Shown here piece after piece: positions 3,370 through 41,085 of a DNA stretch of 43,203 nt. The translations under genes were made by a program, and so were the position numbers. The notes beneath the pieces are model-generated. The model searched no databases and was not told the DNA's origin. It worked only from the letters and a program-made list of their open reading frames with translations. Each line of letters opens with the position of its first letter. Within the stretch, counting starts at the first letter, position 1. Source of the stretch: Subtercola vilae (GTDB lineage Bacteria > Actinomycetota > Actinomycetes > Actinomycetales > Microbacteriaceae); contig NZ_QYRT01000031.1 of assembly GCF_004923255.1 (NCBI RefSeq), forward strand, positions 1 to 43,203, written 5' to 3'.

Positions 3370-5060
3370 GCTTGGTCCTCCGCTGTGAAACCTTCGAGTT
3401 CGAGTACGTGCTGCTCGGAATCGAGGAACACCTTTTTGTCTTTGCTCTCGAACCATGCGGGGAGACGAACGATCGCCGGGGCGTGGTTGCGGTAATTCAG
3501 AAGCGCTTGACCCACCCGGAGCTGAGCGATGTCCGAAACGGTGAGTACATCGTCTTTCGTGGTCGCGGTGTTCGTTGAACCGCCGCGATCGCTGGCGGAG
3601 TAGCTGACCTGGTCAGTCCACCTTCGACCGGCTAAGGCAACCATCTCTTGCAGATGCTTGGTGTCTCGTGACCCACCAAGCTGCAGGAACACGGAGGCAT
3701 TGTTGACGATCTCGTTCGTGCCGTGCTCACCGAAACGGTGCGTGAGCTGGTCCCGGTTCTGCGCCACAACGACGGTTTTTATTCCGTGGCCACGACCGTC
3801 TGACATCAGGGTCGGCAGCATCGGGATCGGGCAAATGTTGGGTACCTCGTCCAGAATGTTGTGCAGGACCGGCGACAATCGCCCTTCACGGGTACGTGTC
3901 GCGGCCCTGGTCGCTTCTTGCTGGATCGACTCCACGAGGGTGGTGATGACGGGCGCTGCGAGAGCGTTCCCGCCGGACTGGGTGAGGAGGTAGAGGGTGT
4001 CTGTTGAGGCGTGGAAGGTGCTGGAGCTGAACCCCTCCCCCGGGTTCGGGCACACGGAGTCGAGGATCGCGCGGATCGAGAACGCTTGGAGTACCCCGGA
4101 GAGGGTCTGTTCCACGTTCGAGGCGGTCTCTGGGGATTCGCCGCGGGAGTATTTCATCAAGTCGTCGTACCAACCGGTATTCGCATCCGGGTGGTCACGG
4201 AGGATCGCGAAGGGTTCGTCGTCTTTGAAGTCTCGCGTCCATGCGAGCACGTCCCGCATCGATTTGTTCTCCAATGCTGCAGCGTGCAGCATGCAGCGGA
4301 GGATCGTCTCTGACGCGTTCGCGAAGAACCCGCTATTACTGGAGTCGCCCTCCAGCGGCCGGGCGGCTACGAGCGCGCGGGCGCGGCGCATCGCGGTTTC
4401 ATCGTCCGCGCAGCCGGCGACGATGTCCCATTTGATCGGGTTCGGCCAGCGTGAGACGCCCTCGGGGTCAAAGACGTGAACTTTCCCGAAGACCCGGCGA
4501 AGCCACGCTGTGAGGCGCAGCACGTCGGGTTTGGTTGACGTGTTGATCAGGGGGGCGCGGCCGGCGCGGAAGATGTATCCAACGACAGCCCGCACTGTCT
4601 TTCCCATCCCGGAGGGGGCAAGGATCAGGGCGGAGTCTTCGTCGGTGTCGTAGATCCCCCGCCGGCCGATGTAGGCGTATGGGCGGCGCGCCTTCTTGAA
4701 CGCACGCGTCAGGGCGGCGTTCAGGTCTGGGGCGTTCGATAAGCCGGTGTGGGTGGACCCGATCCGGACCCGGCGGTAGAAGCTGGCAGCGACGATCCAG
4801 ACGGTGATGAACAGTGCCAGGTACGCGCCTGTCACCCAGAGCACGGGGGCGACGTCGGGAAGTGGACCGTCGCTGGTGGTGCCGTTTTTGAAGATGTAGC
4901 CGACGGCGGCCTGCAGGCTCGGGTTGATTTGCTCGAGCTTGTTGCCGAAGACGGTGACGACGGCGAGGTGCCAGGACAGCACGAGTAGCCCGGCACCGAG
5001 CCAGATTGGCCAGGTGTGGGTGGTGTTCGGGTCGGTGGCGGTGGTGGGGGTGACGGTCAT
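3366..5060 (-). CDS. Type IV coupling protein (VirD4/TraG/TraD family ATPase)
   Basis: 564 residues. Two N-terminal membrane segments (about 17-36 and 73-93) precede a cytoplasmic ATPase. Walker A is APSGMGKT (148-155) and the Walker B region is LHNILDEVPNI; the GGSRDTKHLQEM segment is typical of TraG/TraD proteins of actinobacteria and firmicutes. These hexameric ATPases dock the DNA-relaxase complex at the membrane and feed it to the channel. The ATG at 5060 overlaps the upstream VirB4-like stop (ATGA); the open frame to 5501 is only antisense/shadow sequence. Its presence points to DNA conjugation, not pure protein secretion. Confidence 0.9.
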   Translation of the reverse strand: MTVTPTTATDPNTTHTWPIWLGAGLLVLSWHLAVVTVFGNKLEQINPSLQAAVGYIFKNGTTSDGPLPDVAPVLWVTGAYLALFITVWIVAASFYRRVRIGSTHTGLSNAPDLNAALTRAFKKARRPYAYIGRRGIYDTDEDSALILAPSGMGKTVRAVVGYIFRAGRAPLINTSTKPDVLRLTAWLRRVFGKVHVFDPEGVSRWPNPIKWDIVAGCADDETAMRRARALVAARPLEGDSSNSGFFANASETILRCMLHAAALENKSMRDVLAWTRDFKDDEPFAILRDHPDANTGWYDDLMKYSRGESPETASNVEQTLSGVLQAFSIRAILDSVCPNPGEGFSSSTFHASTDTLYLLTQSGGNALAAPVITTLVESIQQEATRAATRTREGRLSPVLHNILDEVPNICPIPMLPTLMSDGRGHGIKTVVVAQNRDQLTHRFGEHGTNEIVNNASVFLQLGGSRDTKHLQEMVALAGRRWTDQVSYSASDRGGSTNTATTKDDVLTVSDIAQLRVGQALLNYRNHAPAIVRLPAWFESKDKKVFLDSEQHVLELEGFTAEDQA

Positions 5061-6553
5061 GAGTTCTGGTGCCTTTGTGTGTCGAGCGCTTCGTTGGTGT
5101 CGGTCATCGCGACCTCCCACCTCGAGCGGGTGTGCTCGACGAGCATCTCGGGGCGGGTTCCGATCTTGAGGTACTGGCGGCCGTTGGGCAGGCCCTGCAG
5201 CTGCTTCGCGGTGCCCGGTTTGAGGCTGAAGAGCCGCTCGCACATGCGCGCGTCGTCGTTGAGTCCTTGCCGATACAGATGTACCGTCTGCGCTTCTTTG
5301 ATGAACGCGATCGCGGGATCCTTCTTGGGGATGTCGGAGACGTGGTGGAGGCTGACGATGTTCGACAAACCGTGGGCCCGGGCCAGTTTCGCGTTCGACT
5401 GGATTACTTTTCCGCTGGGCCCGCCGACCAGGTGCCAGCCTTCCTCGACGACACAGTTGGTCTGCCAGCCGGGGTGCTTTTTCATGATGCCAAGCAGCCA
5501 CACGTTGATCAGCATCATGCTGATTGTTAGTGCAGGGCCGGACTCTGGGAGGCGGGAAATATCGAAGACGGTCAGTTTGCCGTCGAGGCGAACGTCTTTG
5601 CTGGTCTCTCGATCGAACAGTCCTTCGAGCTCGTCGGAGACGAGCTTGTCGAGGAGGAACTTCACCGTCAGTCCCGCTTCGTTCATCTTCCTTTTGGCGT
5701 GCGGGGCCAGGTCTTTGAACTCGTCGATGTCGACGTTGCCGAGGAACTCGATTACGTCGGGGATCACAGGTACACGTCCGGCCCGTTCGGCGGTGCGGAT
5801 ACCGTACCGGTATGCCATGCGGAGCGCTTTGCCTTCCCAGGAGGTGAGTTCTTTACCGGATTGGCTGAGTTCGGCGACGGTTCGAAGCGTCGCGTATCGG
5901 CCGCCGCCTTTATCTCCGCCGAGCAGCAGCGGGTCGAGCATGTTCAGCGTCGATCCTTCACTGTCGCTGCCGATCCGGAGCCGGATGGTGTCGTAACCCA
6001 TCTCGCGGCAGAGGCGTGCGTATTCGGACTCTTCGCCTTGTGCTTTCTTGTCAATAACACAGACCCGCCGCCCCTTGAGTAGAAGGGGCCGCGCAACGTA
6101 GACCGTTTTGAGGAGGGACGATTTCCCCGATCCAACGTCGCCCATACAGACGACGTTGGGTGAATCGACGATCCGTTTGTTGTACGCGGTGATCGGATCG
6201 TGCGCGACGGGGGTTCGTGAGAGGGTGTCGCGGCCAACGAGGATTCCTTCGTCGTCCGTCGGCGCGGCGATCACGGCGGTGTTCAGTATCTCGGCCTGCC
6301 TGGTCGTGCTCGGCGCACCCGGGGCGGTGGGGGCGTAGAACCCGCGCTTGGCCAGAAACCCGCGCCGCGGCGGTAAATAACCGCGCCGAATGTCGGCGTC
6401 CCATGCTGGCGCGTCGCTGGCCGCGTCCTGCGGCTCAGGGATGGGACGCTCTGGCCCGGCCAGCACGTCTGGCGGGGGCGGGGGTGCGGGTAGGCGATCA
6501 TTCCGCCTTGCCCTCCGCGTGGCGGTGGGCTGGCCGGTGGCCGAGATTGTCAT
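5057..6553 (-). CDS. VirB4-like conjugation ATPase
   Basis: 498 residues. A Pro-rich N-terminus (about 20-60) precedes a RecA-like ATPase with Walker A GDVGSGKSS (138-146), a VCVIDKK strand, and Walker B NCVVEEGWHLVG near 365-372. The LHHVSDIPKKDP and RQGLNDDARMCERLFSL segments fit VirB4/TraE C-terminal lobes. It energises channel assembly and transfer at the inner face of the membrane. In actinobacteria the VirB4 N-terminal part is often a separate SCO6880-type protein, encoded here by the gene just upstream; the two together would make up one functional VirB3/VirB4 unit. The start at 6553 overlaps the upstream stop (ATGA). Confidence 0.85.
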   Translation of the reverse strand: MTISATGQPTATRRARRNDRLPAPPPPPDVLAGPERPIPEPQDAASDAPAWDADIRRGYLPPRRGFLAKRGFYAPTAPGAPSTTRQAEILNTAVIAAPTDDEGILVGRDTLSRTPVAHDPITAYNKRIVDSPNVVCMGDVGSGKSSLLKTVYVARPLLLKGRRVCVIDKKAQGEESEYARLCREMGYDTIRLRIGSDSEGSTLNMLDPLLLGGDKGGGRYATLRTVAELSQSGKELTSWEGKALRMAYRYGIRTAERAGRVPVIPDVIEFLGNVDIDEFKDLAPHAKRKMNEAGLTVKFLLDKLVSDELEGLFDRETSKDVRLDGKLTVFDISRLPESGPALTISMMLINVWLLGIMKKHPGWQTNCVVEEGWHLVGGPSGKVIQSNAKLARAHGLSNIVSLHHVSDIPKKDPAIAFIKEAQTVHLYRQGLNDDARMCERLFSLKPGTAKQLQGLPNGRQYLKIGTRPEMLVEHTRSRWEVAMTDTNEALDTQRHQNS

Positions 6554-26337: not shown

Positions 26338-26581
26338 TCACGTGCCGATCAGTAAATATTCCCTCTCAGAAAATCGCGGGGCGCGGGGATCGGGCCGGAT
26401 TCCCGACGGGTCAGCTGTGGCTTACAGCTGCGCACTGCTCATTGAAAGACTTGAATCCGGAAGACCGCTTCGCTACAAGTGGACTCTGCTCCAAGCTCCT
26501 TGGATCTTAACTCGCCATACAGGAGCGCAACACGCCGCCCGCCAAACGTTTCCTTTAATGATTTGCCGGTTGGATGGACGT

Positions 26582-26812
26582 ATGGGCAGACCAAGCAAGG
26601 GACCGCGATTCTCCATCATGGCAAAGCCAGCTTTGCCTCTCGCCGAAGTCATCAAGACCAATGCCGACGCGCTCGGACTGGCCTACGGCGAATACATCAC
26701 TGCCATCGTCGCGGAATCCCTTGGAATGCCCGAGTATGCTCCGAGGCCCGAGCGAGACAGGACTAACGAACTGCCGATCCCCGGGGAGACACCGATCAGC
26801 AAAGTGGCCTAA
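26582..26812 (+). CDS. Small DNA-binding-like protein (ribbon-helix-helix type)
   Basis: 76 residues from ATG 26582; an in-frame ATG at 26558 is an alternative and neither has a strong ribosome site. MGRPSKGPRFSIMAKPALPL is followed by EVIKTNADALGLAYGEYITA and IVAESLGMPEYAPRP, which reads as a beta strand and two helices in ribbon-helix-helix style. It is the first of three small genes before rep that are separated by repeated terminator-hairpin cassettes. A role in controlling replication is inferred from position. Confidence 0.55.
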   Translation: MGRPSKGPRFSIMAKPALPLAEVIKTNADALGLAYGEYITAIVAESLGMPEYAPRPERDRTNELPIPGETPISKVA

Positions 26813-26820
26813 TCGAAAAA

Positions 26821-26844
26821 GGCCCGTCGCTTGCGGGACGGGCC
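26821..26844 (+). terminator. Cassette A terminator
   Basis: GGCCCGTC and GACGGGCC flank an eight-base loop, nine bases after the stop at 26812. It belongs to the first of three terminator-hairpin cassettes. Confidence 0.7.
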
Positions 26845-26856
26845 GATGAAGTTTCG

Positions 26857-26902
26857 TAGCTCAGAACCCTCCACAGTTTGCCGACCTAGAGGTTCGAGCT
26901 AA
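26857..26902 (+). ncRNA. Cassette A conserved hairpin
   Basis: TAGCTC-A-GAACCCTC pairs with GAGGTTC-GAGCTA, with a bulged A. Cassettes B and C repeat the element; the sixth pair is C-G here and T-A in B, a compensatory change. A further 10-bp inverted repeat (CCGGTTCATC/GATGAACCGG, 26916-26962) follows in this copy only. Confidence 0.55.
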
Positions 26903-27009
26903 TCCAACGAAGAAACCGGTTCATCAGCCCGGTGCCTTCGCTGTACCCCAACGGATGAACCGGAAGGAATGGTCTCATAGTAACCGATAGCGCTTTTTCA
27001 GCGCCAGTA

Positions 27010-27477
27010 TTGGCGAACTCAATTTCGGGCGTGTCTAACGCGACACAGTCCCCTTCGACGGCATCTTTCGACGGAACTAAGGCTTCCGGTCAAGCTGCCG
27101 ACTTCGTGACTGCTGTTAGTTCAGTCGCCCAACGAACGCCTCTCGAAACGGTTCCCTATCGAATTCCCGACACGCTGCCCCGCCTGACGTTAACCACCCC
27201 TTTAACTCGACATGCTTTCCTCATGACGCAAGCCAAGAACGCAGGCATCAAGCGGAACCGCCGCCCCGCAGGGGCCAAGGTTGTTGAACGAAAAATTGTT
27301 CTCTCAGCCGAGACTGCTGAGCGACTAAGAGCCGCCGGCATGGCCTCTGGCTCCTTGTCGCTGTCGCTGTACCTTGAACTGCTAGTTGGCCAGCTCGAAG
27401 CAGAACGCGGGGCCCTCCCTGTTCTGTCTCCTACGCTCGACATCCACTCCAAGGAGGCTGTCACGAAGGCCGCCTAA
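27010..27477 (+). CDS. Small DNA-binding-like protein with uncertain start
   Basis: The reliable part is residues encoded from ATG 27223 (84 residues): a basic start (NAGIKRNRRPAGAKVVERKI), then VLSAETAERLRAAGMASGSL and SLSLYLELLVGQLEAERG, resembling a ribbon-helix-helix or related small regulator. The open frame extends up to TTG 27010 (155 residues), and the added Ser/Thr-rich part could be real. No start has a clear ribosome site. It follows cassette A and is followed by cassette B. GC3 is lower than in the replication gene, suggesting a different origin. Confidence 0.5.
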   Translation: MANSISGVSNATQSPSTASFDGTKASGQAADFVTAVSSVAQRTPLETVPYRIPDTLPRLTLTTPLTRHAFLMTQAKNAGIKRNRRPAGAKVVERKIVLSAETAERLRAAGMASGSLSLSLYLELLVGQLEAERGALPVLSPTLDIHSKEAVTKAA

Positions 27478-27484
27478 ACGAAAA

Positions 27485-27508
27485 GGCCCGCCGCTTACGC
27501 GACGGGCC
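27485..27508 (+). terminator. Cassette B terminator
   Basis: GGCCCGcCG and CGaCGGGCC flank CTTACG, eight bases after the stop. Closely similar to the cassette A terminator. Confidence 0.7.
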
Positions 27509-27520
27509 GGACAAGTTTCG

Positions 27521-27565
27521 TAGCTTCGAACCCTCTTCGCTGCCAGGCCAACGGGTTCAAGCTAA
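27521..27565 (+). ncRNA. Cassette B conserved hairpin
   Basis: TAGCTT-C-GAACCC pairs with GGGTTC-AAGCTA, with a bulged C where copy A has a bulged A. It lies about 20 bases before the ribosome site (AAGGGAGG) of the gene at 27599. Confidence 0.6.
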
Positions 27566-27598
27566 TTCAGATCACCAGCCCACAAGGGAGGTTTCTCT

Positions 27599-27802
27599 AT
27601 GACCGTCACTATAGCAACATCAACTGAAATTCCTAGAGGTTCCTTTTTGGGCGTGTCGTACTACCCCACAAAGACCCTCGTCCGCCATTCAGAGCAACGA
27701 TGCTCTGACTTCGCGTTGAACGACAGACTCACGATGAGCATGCCTGCTCTCGTCTTCTCGCGCACGTCTCCCAGACGGGAGCTGCCTACGGCCGTCGCTT
27801 AA
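27599..27802 (+). CDS. Small hypothetical protein between cassettes B and C
   Basis: 67 residues from ATG 27599 with a strong AAGGGAGG ribosome site. The sequence (MTVTIATSTEIPRGSFLGVS, FALNDRLTMSMPALVFSR) shows no motif. Its tail ELPTAVA and the other two cassette genes' tails (PISKVA, AVTKAA) all run into a near-identical terminator. It could be a short regulatory peptide or a decayed member of the set; the good ribosome site argues for translation. Confidence 0.5.
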   Translation: MTVTIATSTEIPRGSFLGVSYYPTKTLVRHSEQRCSDFALNDRLTMSMPALVFSRTSPRRELPTAVA

Positions 27803-27806
27803 CGAA

Positions 27807-27836
27807 AATGACCCGCCGTACTATCGGCGGGTCATT
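27807..27836 (+). terminator. Cassette C terminator
   Basis: AATGACCCGCCG and CGGCGGGTCATT form a 12-bp perfect stem with loop TACTAT. Same position relative to the stop as in cassettes A and B, with a different stem sequence. Confidence 0.75.
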
Positions 27837-27847
27837 CCCAAGTCATG

Positions 27848-27889
27848 TAGTTCGAACCCTCTTTGCTTGCCGGCGGGAGGTTCGAGCTA
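27848..27889 (+). ncRNA. Cassette C conserved hairpin before rep
   Basis: TAGTTCGAACC pairs with GGTTCGAGCTA (one T-G pair, no bulge). It lies about 20 bases before the ribosome site GGGAGG of the replication gene at 27924, as in cassette B. Confidence 0.6.
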
Positions 27890-27923
27890 ATTCGATCCAC
27901 CTGCCCTCACGGGAGGCTTTTCT

Positions 27924-29930
27924 ATGCCCGAAACATTACCCCAGCCGATGGGTTCATTACCTGAGCGTCGTGTCGGCGTGTCGTCGACCCCGGCGATCGC
28001 TGAGGACGCGAATGCGCTGTTGCGCGCCTGGGATTTGACCAGGCGGTTGAGTCCGCGGGGCACGGTGCGGGTGATGAAGCGGGACGCGTACGGCCGGTTG
28101 GATGAGAATAGTTACCCGAGCACGCACATGGTGGGTCCTGGGGCGCCGTCGACGCCGTGGTGCATGAATCTCGCGGACGAGGCGGGGTTGTTTTGGGTGT
28201 TGTGCTTCGACTTCGATGGCAAGGACAAGCACGGGGTTGATCCGGAGCTGATGGAACTCGCCCGGGATGAGAGCGACGCGCTGTCAACGGTTCTGGGTGA
28301 GCTGTCGATCGCGCATGTTGTCTGCCAGTCGTCCGGTACCGGCGGCCGACACGTCTGGGTGGCTCTGAACGCTGGCGTACCGGCCGATGAGATAGCGGCG
28401 CTTGGTCGTGCGGCGCGGGCGAATTATCGGACGCTGGATCATGGGATGCTGCACAACGCCCGCACGGGCGCCGCGCGCCCTCCGTTGTCGCCTCACCGTG
28501 ATGGGAGCCGCTCGAGTGTGCTCCGCGGCCGGCTGGACTCTTTGCTCGCACCGTCCACCGACGCCGAGATGGTTGCTGAGCTTGCCCGGGTCCTTGATAA
28601 GCGGAAGCCCGCCCCCCGTGCGCTTGAGACGGCACCGTCCGGCCCGGTTGATGCCCGGCATCACGCGCACCGGACGTTGAGCGCTTCTGGGACTGCGCAT
28701 ATGGCCACGATTGGTGGGGGTAGTAACCCGTCGTGGACGGGGTTCATGTGTCTTCTCGCGGCCGCGCACGCTGGCTGGCAGCTCGCCGATGTCCAGCACG
28801 CTGCGAAGGTGGCACCGGGGATGGAGCATTACCGCAGCAAGAACACCGGCCGCGGCACCCGTCGTGCCCGGAGTGCGGCGGAGGCGGCCGAACGGCTTGG
28901 CCGGCAGTGGGAGAAGGCTCAGCAGTACGCCGCCATCCAGCGCCCACTCCCCCCAACAGGGAAGGCACCGGCGGACCTGACGGAGCTGGACGGCATCGTT
29001 GGCGCCGTAGAGGCCGTTCTGGGCTCTTTTTACACGGCTCCTGGCCGTTGGGGTAGCACCGAGTCGGCGCAGTCCCAGCGCAGCGTCCTGGCCGCTCTGG
29101 CGTACCTGTCCCTACAGACCGGGAAACGCATCGTCGCCGCCTCGATCAGAGACCTCGCCCTGATGACAGGGCTCGGCCGGACAACCGCAGCAGACGCACT
29201 CGTAGCCCTCACAGAGCAGGACCTGATCGAACGGGTTAGCAGCAGCGATGGCGGCAATGCCGCGGAATGGCGGATGACCCCCGAGTTTTCCACAACCTCA
29301 GGAACAGTCCGGTCACAACCACTACATAACCCCCGCCCCCCTGCCGATCTCTTCAACACCAGAGCCGATCAAGTGGCCACCCTGGAGAACCTGCTTGCTG
29401 ATCAACGGCACGACCTGTTTACCCGCGCCGGGCTGGGTCACCTGGCAGGGAAGGTCTACGCACTGCTCCGACAGATCCCCGCCCTGACCGTCGAATCTGC
29501 TGCACGGTTGCTGGGTGTGTCGACGAAACATACGATCACGGTGCTGAGCCGGTTACGTCGGCACAGGCTAATCATTCGCCATCCGGAAGGCTGGGCCAGG
29601 TCCAAACGTGATCTCCGACACTATGCAGCGAAACTGATCGGTGTCGCGGGCATTCTGGTGGATCGGGCAAACCGGTACCAGAAGGAGCGGGAGGTGTGGG
29701 CATGGTGGTTGGCTGAGGTGAACCAGATGAACTCGACCCCGAGGCGTCGTATCAGGAGGCCACACGTTTCGAGCCGGACGCTGCAGTTCGTTGATGATCT
29801 CCCGGGTGAACGGCAATGGCCCCGCTACCCTCGAGCTGCTGACGGTCGAGCCGATCACAAAGAAGCCCGCTATTGGGCTGTGAACGGAATGCTTGACCCC
29901 GGATCGTTGTGGTACTCCAGCGCCGCCTAA
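27924..29930 (+). CDS. rep: Replication initiator with primase-like domain
   Basis: 668 residues from ATG 27924 with GGGAGG upstream. The N-terminal ~250 residues show archaeo-eukaryotic-primase hallmarks: the acidic motif FDFDGK (Asp96, Asp98), the SSGTGGRHVWVAL motif (136-148, His143) and a later LDHGMLHNARTGAARPPLSP stretch. The C-terminal half has two helix-turn-helix units (about 404-445, IRDLALMTGLGRTTAADALV, and about 525-560, ESAARLLGVSTKHTITVLSR), suitable for origin binding. This primase-plus-HTH make-up is seen in Rep proteins of actinobacterial plasmids. Its G+C and codon bias are higher than those of the small genes before it. The hairpin cassette before it may set its expression and thus copy number. 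Confidence 0.75.
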   Translation: MPETLPQPMGSLPERRVGVSSTPAIAEDANALLRAWDLTRRLSPRGTVRVMKRDAYGRLDENSYPSTHMVGPGAPSTPWCMNLADEAGLFWVLCFDFDGKDKHGVDPELMELARDESDALSTVLGELSIAHVVCQSSGTGGRHVWVALNAGVPADEIAALGRAARANYRTLDHGMLHNARTGAARPPLSPHRDGSRSSVLRGRLDSLLAPSTDAEMVAELARVLDKRKPAPRALETAPSGPVDARHHAHRTLSASGTAHMATIGGGSNPSWTGFMCLLAAAHAGWQLADVQHAAKVAPGMEHYRSKNTGRGTRRARSAAEAAERLGRQWEKAQQYAAIQRPLPPTGKAPADLTELDGIVGAVEAVLGSFYTAPGRWGSTESAQSQRSVLAALAYLSLQTGKRIVAASIRDLALMTGLGRTTAADALVALTEQDLIERVSSSDGGNAAEWRMTPEFSTTSGTVRSQPLHNPRPPADLFNTRADQVATLENLLADQRHDLFTRAGLGHLAGKVYALLRQIPALTVESAARLLGVSTKHTITVLSRLRRHRLIIRHPEGWARSKRDLRHYAAKLIGVAGILVDRANRYQKEREVWAWWLAEVNQMNSTPRRRIRRPHVSSRTLQFVDDLPGERQWPRYPRAADGRADHKEARYWAVNGMLDPGSLWYSSAA

Positions 29931-39367: not shown

Positions 39368-40334
39368 GCTGACACCTCAAAGACCGCTGCAGTGGTTTAC
39401 AACCGAGTCAAAGTTGACCTCGACGCGCTCCGGAAGCCGTGAACTCGTCTGCTCGCGAAGCGGGGTGGGGTGATTCGGTTTGGTTGGAGACGTCCGTTGA
39501 AGACGTCGGTCAAGGCGTCACTGAGCAGGCCATAGAGCTCGGTTCCAATCCGGTGATCGTGGCCGGTGGTGACGGGACCGTCCGTGCCGTCGCTGAAGCA
39601 GTCCGGGGCACTGGCATCCCGGTAGCTCTCCTGCCATCGGGGACCGGGAACTTGCTTGCCCGGAATCTGAAACTTACCCTCGACGACGTGCCCGGCTCGG
39701 TGCTCGCCGCGTTCACCGGAACGGACCGGGCCATCGATCTCGGAGTGGTCGATATTGAACGGGCCGATAAGACCCGGGACTGGCACGTGTTCGTCGTGAT
39801 GGCTGGGATGGGTATCGACGCGAAAGTGATCGCCAACACCGACGAGAACCTCAAATCCAAAGCCGGTATCGCTGCGTACGTCGGTGCGGTCAGCAAATCC
39901 CTCAGGGACCCCAACGAACTGCACCTCAGGTTCAAACTCGACGACGAACCGGTCAAGCATGCAACCGTGCACACGGTGATCCTTGGCAATTGTGGGTCGC
40001 TGCCGGCATCCTGTTGGTGCCCAACGCCGTCATCGACGACGGCCTGTTTGACCTGCTCCTCATGCGGCCAGGCAGTGTCCTCGGCTGGATCAGGGTGTGG
40101 GCGAAAGTTGCCTGGAACGGGATCGTGCGCCGCACGAAGGCGGGGAAGGCGTTCGCGGGGGAGCAGAAGAACGATGGCGACCTGCACTACCGGACCGGTA
40201 AAAAGTTCAGCGCCCGTCTGTCACGGCCGGAAGAGATCGAACCCGACGGTGACGGGCTCGGGAAAGCCGTCGCCTTCAACGCCTGGATCGAACCCGGTGC
40301 GCTGCAGATCCGTGTCTCAGCCGACGCCAACTGA
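39368..40334 (+). pseudogene. Decayed diacylglycerol kinase family gene
   Basis: Three frames together make one diacylglycerol/sphingosine kinase-like protein. The N-terminus KTAAVVYNRVKVDLDALRK runs to TGA at 39440-39442; one base lost there shifts to the frame from GTG 39439 with NPVIVAGGDGTVRAVAEAVR and VALLPSGTGNLLARNL (the GGDGT and SGTGN motifs). A second shift near 40005 leads to ILLVPNAVIDDGLFDLLLMR and the end at 40332-40334. The intact enzyme would phosphorylate lipids. The start region is also unclear. It looks like a chromosomal gene captured or left behind and inactivated. Confidence 0.75.
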
Positions 40335-40340
40335 CTCACC

Positions 40341-41085
40341 CATGGCTGAGGAGTATCGGGTGTTCCGGATGCCCAAACAGCCGGGTATTCATCGGCCAAC
40401 AGTTCAGTTGCTGCATGGCATCGCGCTCTCGCACCGCTCGCCCACCCGGGCCGGAAGACTGCGTGCCCGGCGCGGCGACATCATCGGAATCGACCTCCCC
40501 GGGTTCGGCGGCACCCGCCGGGCGAAAAACCTGTTGAGTGTCGAAGCGTACGCTGCCGGAATCGCAGGCGTTCTGGACCGTCTCGAAGCTGACCCGGTGA
40601 TTACGGTGGGGCACTCCATGGGTGCGCAGTGCGCTGTCGAGCTCCCGTGAGCCGCCCCGACCTGGACAAAGTCGTCGTGATGATCGGACCAGTTGTCGAC
40701 CTCCGCTACAGAACCATGTGACAGCAGGGCGTCCGGCTGCTCCGCGACGCGGCTCTCGAACCGCGACAGACGAACATGATGGCCCAATTCGACTACGCCC
40801 GCTGCGGACCGGCCTGGTTCCTCACCGAAACCTGTGCCATGCTCGCCTGCCGCACCCACGACCGCGTTCAGCAACTGATCAAATCGCTTCTGGTGCGTCG
40901 CGGGAGCAACGGCCCGATAGCGGATGAATAGTGGGTGAGTTGGCCGGCCACCCACACCGGGTAACACCAGCCAGAGCATGCCCGGGTACCGCCACAACGT
41001 CGGACATAGTGCCCTGGCGGAGACCGAGAGAATGATCATCCTCTTCGAAGAACACCTCAGCAGCCAACCGGGAGACCGCGAGTGA
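40341..41085 (+). pseudogene. Decayed alpha/beta hydrolase gene
   Basis: From ATG 40341 the frame gives TVQLLHGIALSHRS, GDIIGIDLPGFGGTRRAKNL and VITVGHSMGAQCAVEL (nucleophile elbow GHSMG), stopping at TGA 40648-40650. Coding traces continue out of frame: DKVVVMIGPVVDLRYRTM with a TGA for Trp, QFDYARCGPAWFLTETCAML, an amber codon in IADE*WV, and GHRHNVGHSA with the catalytic His region. At least two shifts and two stop codons make it inactive. It follows the diacylglycerol kinase remnant by six bases; the two probably decayed together. Confidence 0.7.

Follow-up and report, generated by a model that had tools for sequence, protein, structure and literature searches.

We propose that each of three hairpin units arranged in series on an actinobacterial contig is a minus-strand gene for a counter-transcribed antisense RNA, consisting of a −10 box, a recognition hairpin (P1) and an intrinsic terminator, and that the last of them, unit C, controls the replication gene rep. 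We put the probability of this reading at about 87%. Each antisense RNA would begin close to the next plus-strand gene's start codon, cross that gene's ribosome site and P1, and stop at the GC terminator that follows the upstream small gene. Antisense C would have the rep mRNA leader as its target: its loop would contact the complementary P1 loop of rep mRNA, and pairing would then extend over the ribosome site and block translation. With few plasmid copies there would be little antisense RNA, and Rep would be made only then; incompatibility would be expected from the same RNAs. The small upstream gene, probably encoding a ribbon-helix-helix protein, would add a second level of control by repressing the operon in the manner of CopG, and many relatives may cut Rep output further via an AUC, AUA or AUU start codon lying within the antisense −10 box. 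What the sequence itself shows is the strand, the structure with its covariation, the fixed −10-like box, the position and the frame of the non-AUG start; transcription, loop contact, block of translation, repression and incompatibility are deduced from it.

The whole stretch of DNA analysed (the window) is 43,203 bp long and is one entire contig. Its three units lie at about 26813-26903 (A), 27480-27566 (B) and 27803-27891 (C), with the features listed in Table 1. The pattern GAACCCTC-N8..26-GGTTCRAGCTA matches three times in the window and never in 100 shuffles, and the units are the sole matches in the 4.04-Mb genome to a similar pattern and to R1, a covariance model built from 47 units (a fuzzy search was also used). 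The three hairpin copies described in an earlier note on this DNA are therefore real, and so are its pair changes (the sixth pair is C-G in A and C and T-A in B; the fourth is T-G in C) and its bulge, which is one base in A and B and missing in C. A stop codon precedes each GC stem within about ten bases, in the order the note gave. The strong ribosome site that it placed after B and C is there, as GGGAGG, 7 nt and ATG; A has none and belongs to a second class of leaders. The dispersed copies without a single function that an integron attC or a repetitive extragenic element would have were not found: the genome has three matches, all here, and strong R1 matches in other genomes sit at replication genes.

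Table 1. Features of the three units and their surroundings in the window.
Feature	Position	Strand	Remarks
Motif AACACGCC	26529-26536	+	differs from the GACACGCC motif at one position; lies directly before gene a
Gene a, probable ribbon-helix-helix regulator, type a	26582-26812	+	76 aa; 15-relative profile matches Arc repressor, E=0.0072
Predicted antisense RNA A	26813-26970	-	~158 nt; start inferred ~7 nt past the −10 box; R1 78.6 bits
Intrinsic terminator of predicted antisense A	26821-26844	-	GC stem, TTTTTCG on minus
P1 recognition hairpin A	26857-26901	-	arms 26857-26868 / 26891-26901; sense loop contains GTTTGCCGAC, 26876-26885
Putative antisense −10 box A	26977-26982	-	TACTAT on minus = ATA GTA on plus
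rep 5′ remnant	26977-27222	+	IVTDSAFSAPVLANSISGVS..., like class II start IVTDSAVSAPFFSVNRAGVS of L034; frame open into gene b
Putative promoter/operator of gene b	27169-27206	+	GACACGC 27169-27175, GTTAAC 27189-27194, TTTAAC
Gene b, probable ribbon-helix-helix regulator, type b	27223-27477	+	84 aa; alignment A4; two helices in AlphaFold; NikA E=0.034 (weak)
Predicted antisense RNA B	27474-27601	-	~125 nt; R1 85.8 bits
Intrinsic terminator of predicted antisense B	27485-27508	-	TTTTCGTTTA on minus
P1 recognition hairpin B	27521-27564	-	arms 27521-27533 / 27553-27564; sense loop GCTGCCAGGC, 27539-27548
Gene c, probable remnant	27599-27802	+	67 aa; rep-start-like 5′ end; end like the tail of small regulators; no Pfam match
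Putative antisense −10 box B	27608-27613	-	TATAGT on minus; nt 10-15 of the next ORF
Predicted antisense RNA C, opposite rep leader	27800-27926	-	~125 nt; R1 84.4 bits
Intrinsic terminator of predicted antisense C	27807-27836	-	..GGGTCATTTTCG on minus
P1 recognition hairpin C	27848-27889	-	arms 27848-27858 / 27879-27889; sense loop GCTTGCCGGC, 27865-27874
P2 hairpin CCC-tcac-GGG	27904-27916	+	includes half of the rep ribosome site GGGAGG, 27911-27916
rep	27924-29930	+	668 aa; in a family of replication proteins found on actinobacterial plasmids; primase-like and HTH matches weak
Putative antisense −10 box C	27933-27938	-	TAATGT on minus; nt 10-15 of rep
Motif GGCGTGTC	27975-27982	+	5′ end of rep; also 27028-27035 (after A) and 27650-27657 (after B)

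The GC stems had been taken for terminators of the small genes. This does not fit their strand: the T-runs beside them lie on the minus strand and their G-U pairs form only there, which rules out sense-strand terminators. The stems would end a leftward transcript, and for this reason we read the unit as an antisense RNA gene that overlaps with the next gene's leader. A terminator caller reports the stems of A and B as minus-strand, while that of C scores under its threshold; the U-tracts are short (TCTTTCGTTT).

In Pfam, rep gives AEP-TOTE at E=0.00067, below the cut-off, and HTH_Crp_2 at 27.2 bits, at the cut-off. Its relatives are found in 203 plasmid records and at 40 loci of the genome collection, and the nearest named organisms with a relative are Subtercola. 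Given rep and the ParA-like gene, conjugation coupling protein and integrase also encoded here, the contig probably represents a plasmid or else an integrative relative of one. Elsewhere in the window (39439-40650), one ORF joins a diacylglycerol-kinase-like part to an alpha/beta-hydrolase part.

The window stacks its units in the order regulator a, antisense A, rep remnant, regulator b, antisense B, remnant, antisense C, rep; pairs of units occur at ten other loci. The reading of the array as one with remnants follows from the frame of gene b, which begins like rep, and from gene c, which begins like a class I rep. The first remnant would have its non-AUG start at the ATA at 26977, with a Shine–Dalgarno (SD) sequence, AAGGA, 8 nt upstream. 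A clean fusion of the rep 5′ end with gene b was considered, the frame being open, yet gene b has its own upstream motif, and its start was consequently taken as the ATG at 27223. Loop A is nearly identical to the loop of the first (non-rep) unit in the Rathayibacter plasmid locus L043 and is similar to that of the rep leader of L014. Units A and B look like control modules captured from related control regions. At somewhat less than even odds they are instead dead relics of old rep regions without function: both precede rep 5′ remnants, A occurs in such an arrangement only in the window, and gene c looks eroded. However, box, stem, loop and terminator are intact in A and B, the B–C pair is kept in two other loci (L005 and L017) with its sequence changed and still paired, and extra units are found in ten other loci from at least five genera. 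As captured modules, A and B probably still make antisense RNA, and these RNAs may act in trans. The L043 plasmid itself carries two full regulator–antisense modules in series (4997-5883).

In 35 of the 40 genome loci, comprising all 35 with an intact rep 5′ end, a minus-strand R1 match lies 30-149 nt ahead of the rep match; in the other five the contig begins inside rep (L050, L051), only the C-terminal part is present (L053, L056) or the region is replaced (L025). In L025 (5700-6000), a Subtercola copy of rep has had its 5′ end and leader exchanged for other sequence. Of these 35 rep-adjacent units, 26 formed part of the R1 training set and nine were found by R1 (L027, L037, L040, L042, L044, L045, L046, L047, L052). 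The unit is also present in 10 of 10 close plasmid records (L057-L066). Ten further records (L099-L108) comprise five R1 matches at E ≤ 1e-6, two weak ones and three without a match, where the unit was placed by eye; in L109-L112 it was seen by eye and R1 also matches two of the four. Two Rhodococcus leaders (L113, L114) have a small regulator-like gene and hairpins with no R1 match. Placement by eye, with R1 weak or silent, concerns L099, L100, L101, L102, L107, L109, L110, L113 and L114. The covariance search that the earlier note had suggested has thus turned up homologues beyond the original three, before rep on many plasmids from actinobacteria that live in soil or on plants, and the note's idea that the unit before rep tunes copy number is likely.

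The leaders fall into two classes, and class I consists of GGGAGG (or AGGAGG), 7 nt and an ATG. The search pattern for ATG leaders took 36, from which four were dropped: L020, L021 and L061 belong to class II, and L023 has its box 3 nt nearer. In all 32 remaining leaders, a minus-strand TANNNT (A...TA on the plus strand) occupies exactly nt 10-15 of the ORF, against 2 box matches in total at 51 other offsets. These leaders represent 17 distinct starts, and 11 of the 32 precede an ORF other than rep. Such boxes are otherwise rare (13 of 11,739 codon pairs in the window; 65 of 49,915 in 12 loci); here they are upheld by the rare codons TTA and ATA, and a G is frequent two bases before them (14/17, 19/23), like in extended −10 promoters. 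An RNA started from such a box would begin at about the complement of the start codon. As to a promoter and a terminator of its own, the antisense gene has the G-U pairs and minus-strand T-runs of its terminator and the −10 box in 32 of 32 leaders; no −35 box is conserved among the leaders. A sigma-70 promoter scan of 26500-28200 returned 0 promoters, and so it is the position of the −10 box that carries the promoter claim.

The class II box falls on the opening codons of rep. A pattern blind to frame (SD, 5-10 nt, ATHNTA, or xTGACTNTA) matched 38 of the 42 non-class-I leaders; shuffled sequences averaged 0.3-0.4 matches, and elsewhere in the same loci 3 of 2,339 stretches matched. Because the search pattern demanded ATNNTA, conservation of the box is partly built in, and the independent evidence is the hit rate against controls together with the frame. 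A start-like codon is in frame with rep, with no intervening stop, in 34 of 34 class II leaders at varying distance; it is ATC in 19, ATA in 11, ATT in one, CTG in two and TTG in one, and ATA is also found in L020, L021 and L061. Several leaders (L039, L063, L102, L109) have an in-frame stop 12-18 nt ahead of the putative start codon, and L042, L102, L103 and L105 contain no ATG, GTG or TTG at all from the in-frame stop to a conserved W-x-L-T motif. The exceptions are L019, with an in-frame ATG three codons before the ATA, L023, which starts with ATG, and L104, with a weak SD. To judge from the sequence, class II rep appears to start at AUC, AUA or AUU, with the same codon serving as part of the antisense −10 box. 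Since this seems to be the real start, the annotated rep starts, which fall inside the conserved region in the records opened (e.g., L102 and L103), are probably wrong.

It is unlikely that translation of class II rep enters by a −1 frameshift out of a mini-ORF of four codons (xTG-NNN-CCA-TCG-TAA and similar) or starts at an internal GTG. Many class II leaders do have an xTG in the −1 frame just past the SD, and a GTG 24 nt ahead of the W-x-L-T motif is common; however, the xTG overlaps or adjoins the SD, the mini-ORF stops too early in L020, L021 and L061 and is absent from L039 and L106, most such GTGs have no SD, and the four leaders named above are devoid of ATG, GTG and TTG between stop and motif. 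In the open-access literature searched, no antisense RNA for these plasmids and no non-AUG rep start is described.

The structure itself is conserved as pairing. In alignment A1, 95.0% of 1,054 cells are paired, and 11 of 23 pairs have changes on both sides (4.7 in shuffles, with 1 of 500 as high), amounting to 45 cells with two-sided change versus 11.6 in shuffles. The covariation score of 0.189 exceeds the shuffled 0.119 ± 0.007 (0 of 500 as high) and falls to 0.100 or less when the partner is shifted by 1-3 columns. Among deeper relatives, P1 arms have been swapped wholesale with pairing kept, e.g., GATCTG/CAGATC in L102 and TAGACC/GGTCTA in L118. Selection on RNA structure, which the earlier note had argued from three copies, is supported by these figures, and the differences between copies, on which it had staked its argument, do preserve pairing. 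The predicted antisense RNAs fold stably: −52.1 kcal/mol with z −4.05 for C, −54.3 kcal/mol with z −3.5 for B, and z −3.2 for A (143 nt).

We consider it very improbable that the structure acts in the sense mRNA leader only, as an attenuator, a riboswitch or an RNase or protein site, with no antisense RNA made. The plus strand of C folds nearly as well as the minus strand (−53.1 versus −52.1), as the two are complementary; P2 overlaps the ribosome site in part, and in copy C the U-G pair can form on the plus strand only. Against this reading stand the counts of the terminator stem, where 47 sequences at nine pairs give 383 Watson–Crick cells, 32 G-U cells on the minus strand (at six of the nine pairs) and none on the plus strand. 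An asymmetry of exactly this kind is borne by the transcribed strand when the RNA tolerates G-U pairs. P1, in the same 47 sequences, has 529 Watson–Crick cells, 33 G-U cells read on the minus strand and 15 on the plus strand, these 15 plus-only cells arising partly from bulged rows. The T-runs occur solely on the minus strand, and the minus-strand TANNNT keeps one fixed place in ORFs that differ in sequence. That the palindrome is a DNA element (a replication origin, recombination or single-strand site) is hardly credible: the core-group arms in A1 conserve both sequence and pairing, and modules have recombined beside them, but deeper relatives carry unrelated, still paired arms, strand-asymmetric G-U pairs and a terminator are senseless for double-stranded DNA, and the position is tied to the start codon.

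An antisense RNA gene of this type would belong to no family known to Rfam, whose curated covariance models gave 0 matches at the gathering score; up to E=10, the region 26780-27960 returned seven matches, none of them a plasmid antisense family. The U-turn motif YUNR is found in the loop of the sense strand only in 41 cases, of the antisense strand only in 21, of both in five and of neither in 10; these counts have no chance control and the motif is common by chance in loops of such size, so that we make use only of repeated motifs and their flips.

The cassette is not confined to this type of rep. In 299 Microbacteriaceae genomes, R1 has 38 matches at E ≤ 1e-9, in 25 genomes; 36 precede or lie close to one or other of two replication genes, or sit on a truncated copy of such a locus, and two are at contig ends (G166). 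Thirty-one are near a rep of the window type. Five others are on four contigs without it, the fifth being a copy cut by the contig end; at four of these five places the downstream gene could be read and represents a second family, for which blastp against rep gives no match at E < 1. Relatives of this second replication protein occur in 145 plasmid records, some annotated as "replication protein" or "rep protein", and a Frigoribacterium plasmid (L120; R1 E 3.2e-10) is a fifth replicon with it. The regulator–antisense cassette was seen before this protein in L115-L118, L120 and L122. In leaders of the second family the boxes are ATC or ATA and the sense loops read GTTTGGCGAC or similar, and this type of loop is reversed (GTCGCCAAAC) in Curtobacterium, Herbiconiux and Rhodococcus leaders; the U-turn may thus be carried by either RNA. 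Weak matches of the scan (E 1e-8 to 1e-3; many of 82/299 genomes) resemble chance hairpins and were left out, and an order-level scan gave five matches at E 8e-11 to 8e-8. One 39.9-kb contig has a unit near both of its ends (L118 and L119, G247:C2); it is probably a circular plasmid with overlapping ends.

From its occurrence before both genes, the cassette appears to have been swapped between unrelated replication proteins. The spreading cassette that the earlier note had envisaged holds to the extent that the unit travels with a small regulator and serves two unrelated initiators; it is a replication-control cassette, not a free repeat. A broader reading, which we regard as doubtful, is that of a mobile cassette of Actinobacteria, its regulator gene, antisense RNA gene and rep start codon travelling together as a block, with at least two unrelated initiators and a mostly obligate non-AUG rep, where stacked A and B RNAs would exclude or restrain matching incoming plasmids. 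The start would be obligate because its codon is also the antisense −10 box, and if this were true, Rep output and its inhibitor would be tied to the same six bases.

Part of this organization has precedents. The copG-rnaII-repB region of pMV158, as described in PMC4485353, has a CopG repressor, antisense RNAII and an atypical rep translation start. The resemblance covers the small repressor-like gene followed by an intergenic antisense gene against the operon, the intrinsic terminator behind the small gene, and the target just upstream of the atypical start. In contrast, the RNA predicted here has ~125-160 nt rather than 48 and its own P1 hairpin apart from the terminator, the hosts are Actinobacteria, Rep is larger and unrelated, starts are non-AUG and units are stacked, and repression and inhibition are our inference. 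Pfam gives no sign of a rolling-circle RepB of the pMV158 family in rep, only the weak primase-like and HTH matches. R1/IncFII (copB-copA-repA) and IncI/IncB plasmids also combine a repressor gene and an antisense RNA over the leader with a loop U-turn motif, and are theta-type and low-copy, as the plasmids here would be. The IncI/IncB loop is UUGGCG, which resembles the loop TTTGGCGAC of many relatives. Unlike in those systems, Rep is unrelated and neither a tap/repY-like gene nor a pseudoknot partner was noticed, without a systematic search for them. CopB of R1/IncFII acts on a second promoter, according to PMC5717011.

Exchange of replication control and rep modules has a precedent in Pseudomonas replicons, which excerpts of PMC5304414 present as chimeras of exchangeable modules, in another phylum and with other modules. 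Mycobacteriophages with RNA-based prophage origins, where RNA is thought to start replication, likewise are low-copy actinobacterial replicons with RepA-type proteins, but the accessible sections of PMC7157519 describe no such antisense unit. Mycobacteria also have relatives of the second replication protein. The unit is a candidate determinant of copy number and incompatibility for many uncharacterised plasmids of Cryobacterium, Clavibacter, Curtobacterium, Rathayibacter, Arthrobacter and others. It also offers a marker for typing them; standard replicon typing gave no result in almost all of the records opened. Stacked units make the origin and merging of incompatibility groups directly testable, and class II rep seems to be a case of a start codon sharing its bases with an antisense promoter.

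An ORF ends at the unit in 70 of 70 cases, and it encodes a protein of 75-85 residues with an extended stretch and two helices, except at the second unit of L005, L017, L046, L047 and L106, at unit C (remnants) and possibly in L037. Neither gene a nor gene b has a Pfam match. Among the members of the small-gene profile, 8 of 15 match CopG_antitoxin (best E 0.015) and 3 of 15 HicB (0.0089), all below curated cut-offs; one small-gene profile also matches a designed repeat protein (E 0.00081, no stretch passing). Foldseek gave a best E of 1.7 for the small regulator, with Arc, NikR and MatP among its 45 matches. Taken with the matches in Table 1, a ribbon-helix-helix protein is the probable product.

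The exact motif GACACGCC stands just upstream of the small gene at 20 of 70 units, against 12 of 2,898 stretches elsewhere; with up to one mismatch and in either orientation, it does so at 59 of 70 units versus 21.7% elsewhere. Its reverse complement, GGCGTGTC, follows within 230 nt of the unit in 44 of 70, so that the motif is oriented alike upstream of the operon and of the putative antisense promoter. We doubt that GGCGTGTC is an iteron of the window Rep, as it also occurs after units that precede other ORFs, and 26 of 70 units lack it within 230 nt. Several Cryobacterium reps (L026-L033) contain tandem copies of GACACGCC/GGCGTGTC. Upstream of small genes there are also palindromes such as TGTTTCTGATTCAG or ATGCATGCATTAA (L028, L037, L040, L048, L057, L063, L065 and others); judged by eye, those between the GACACGCC motif and the small gene vary with the type of small gene, and they are candidate type-specific operators.
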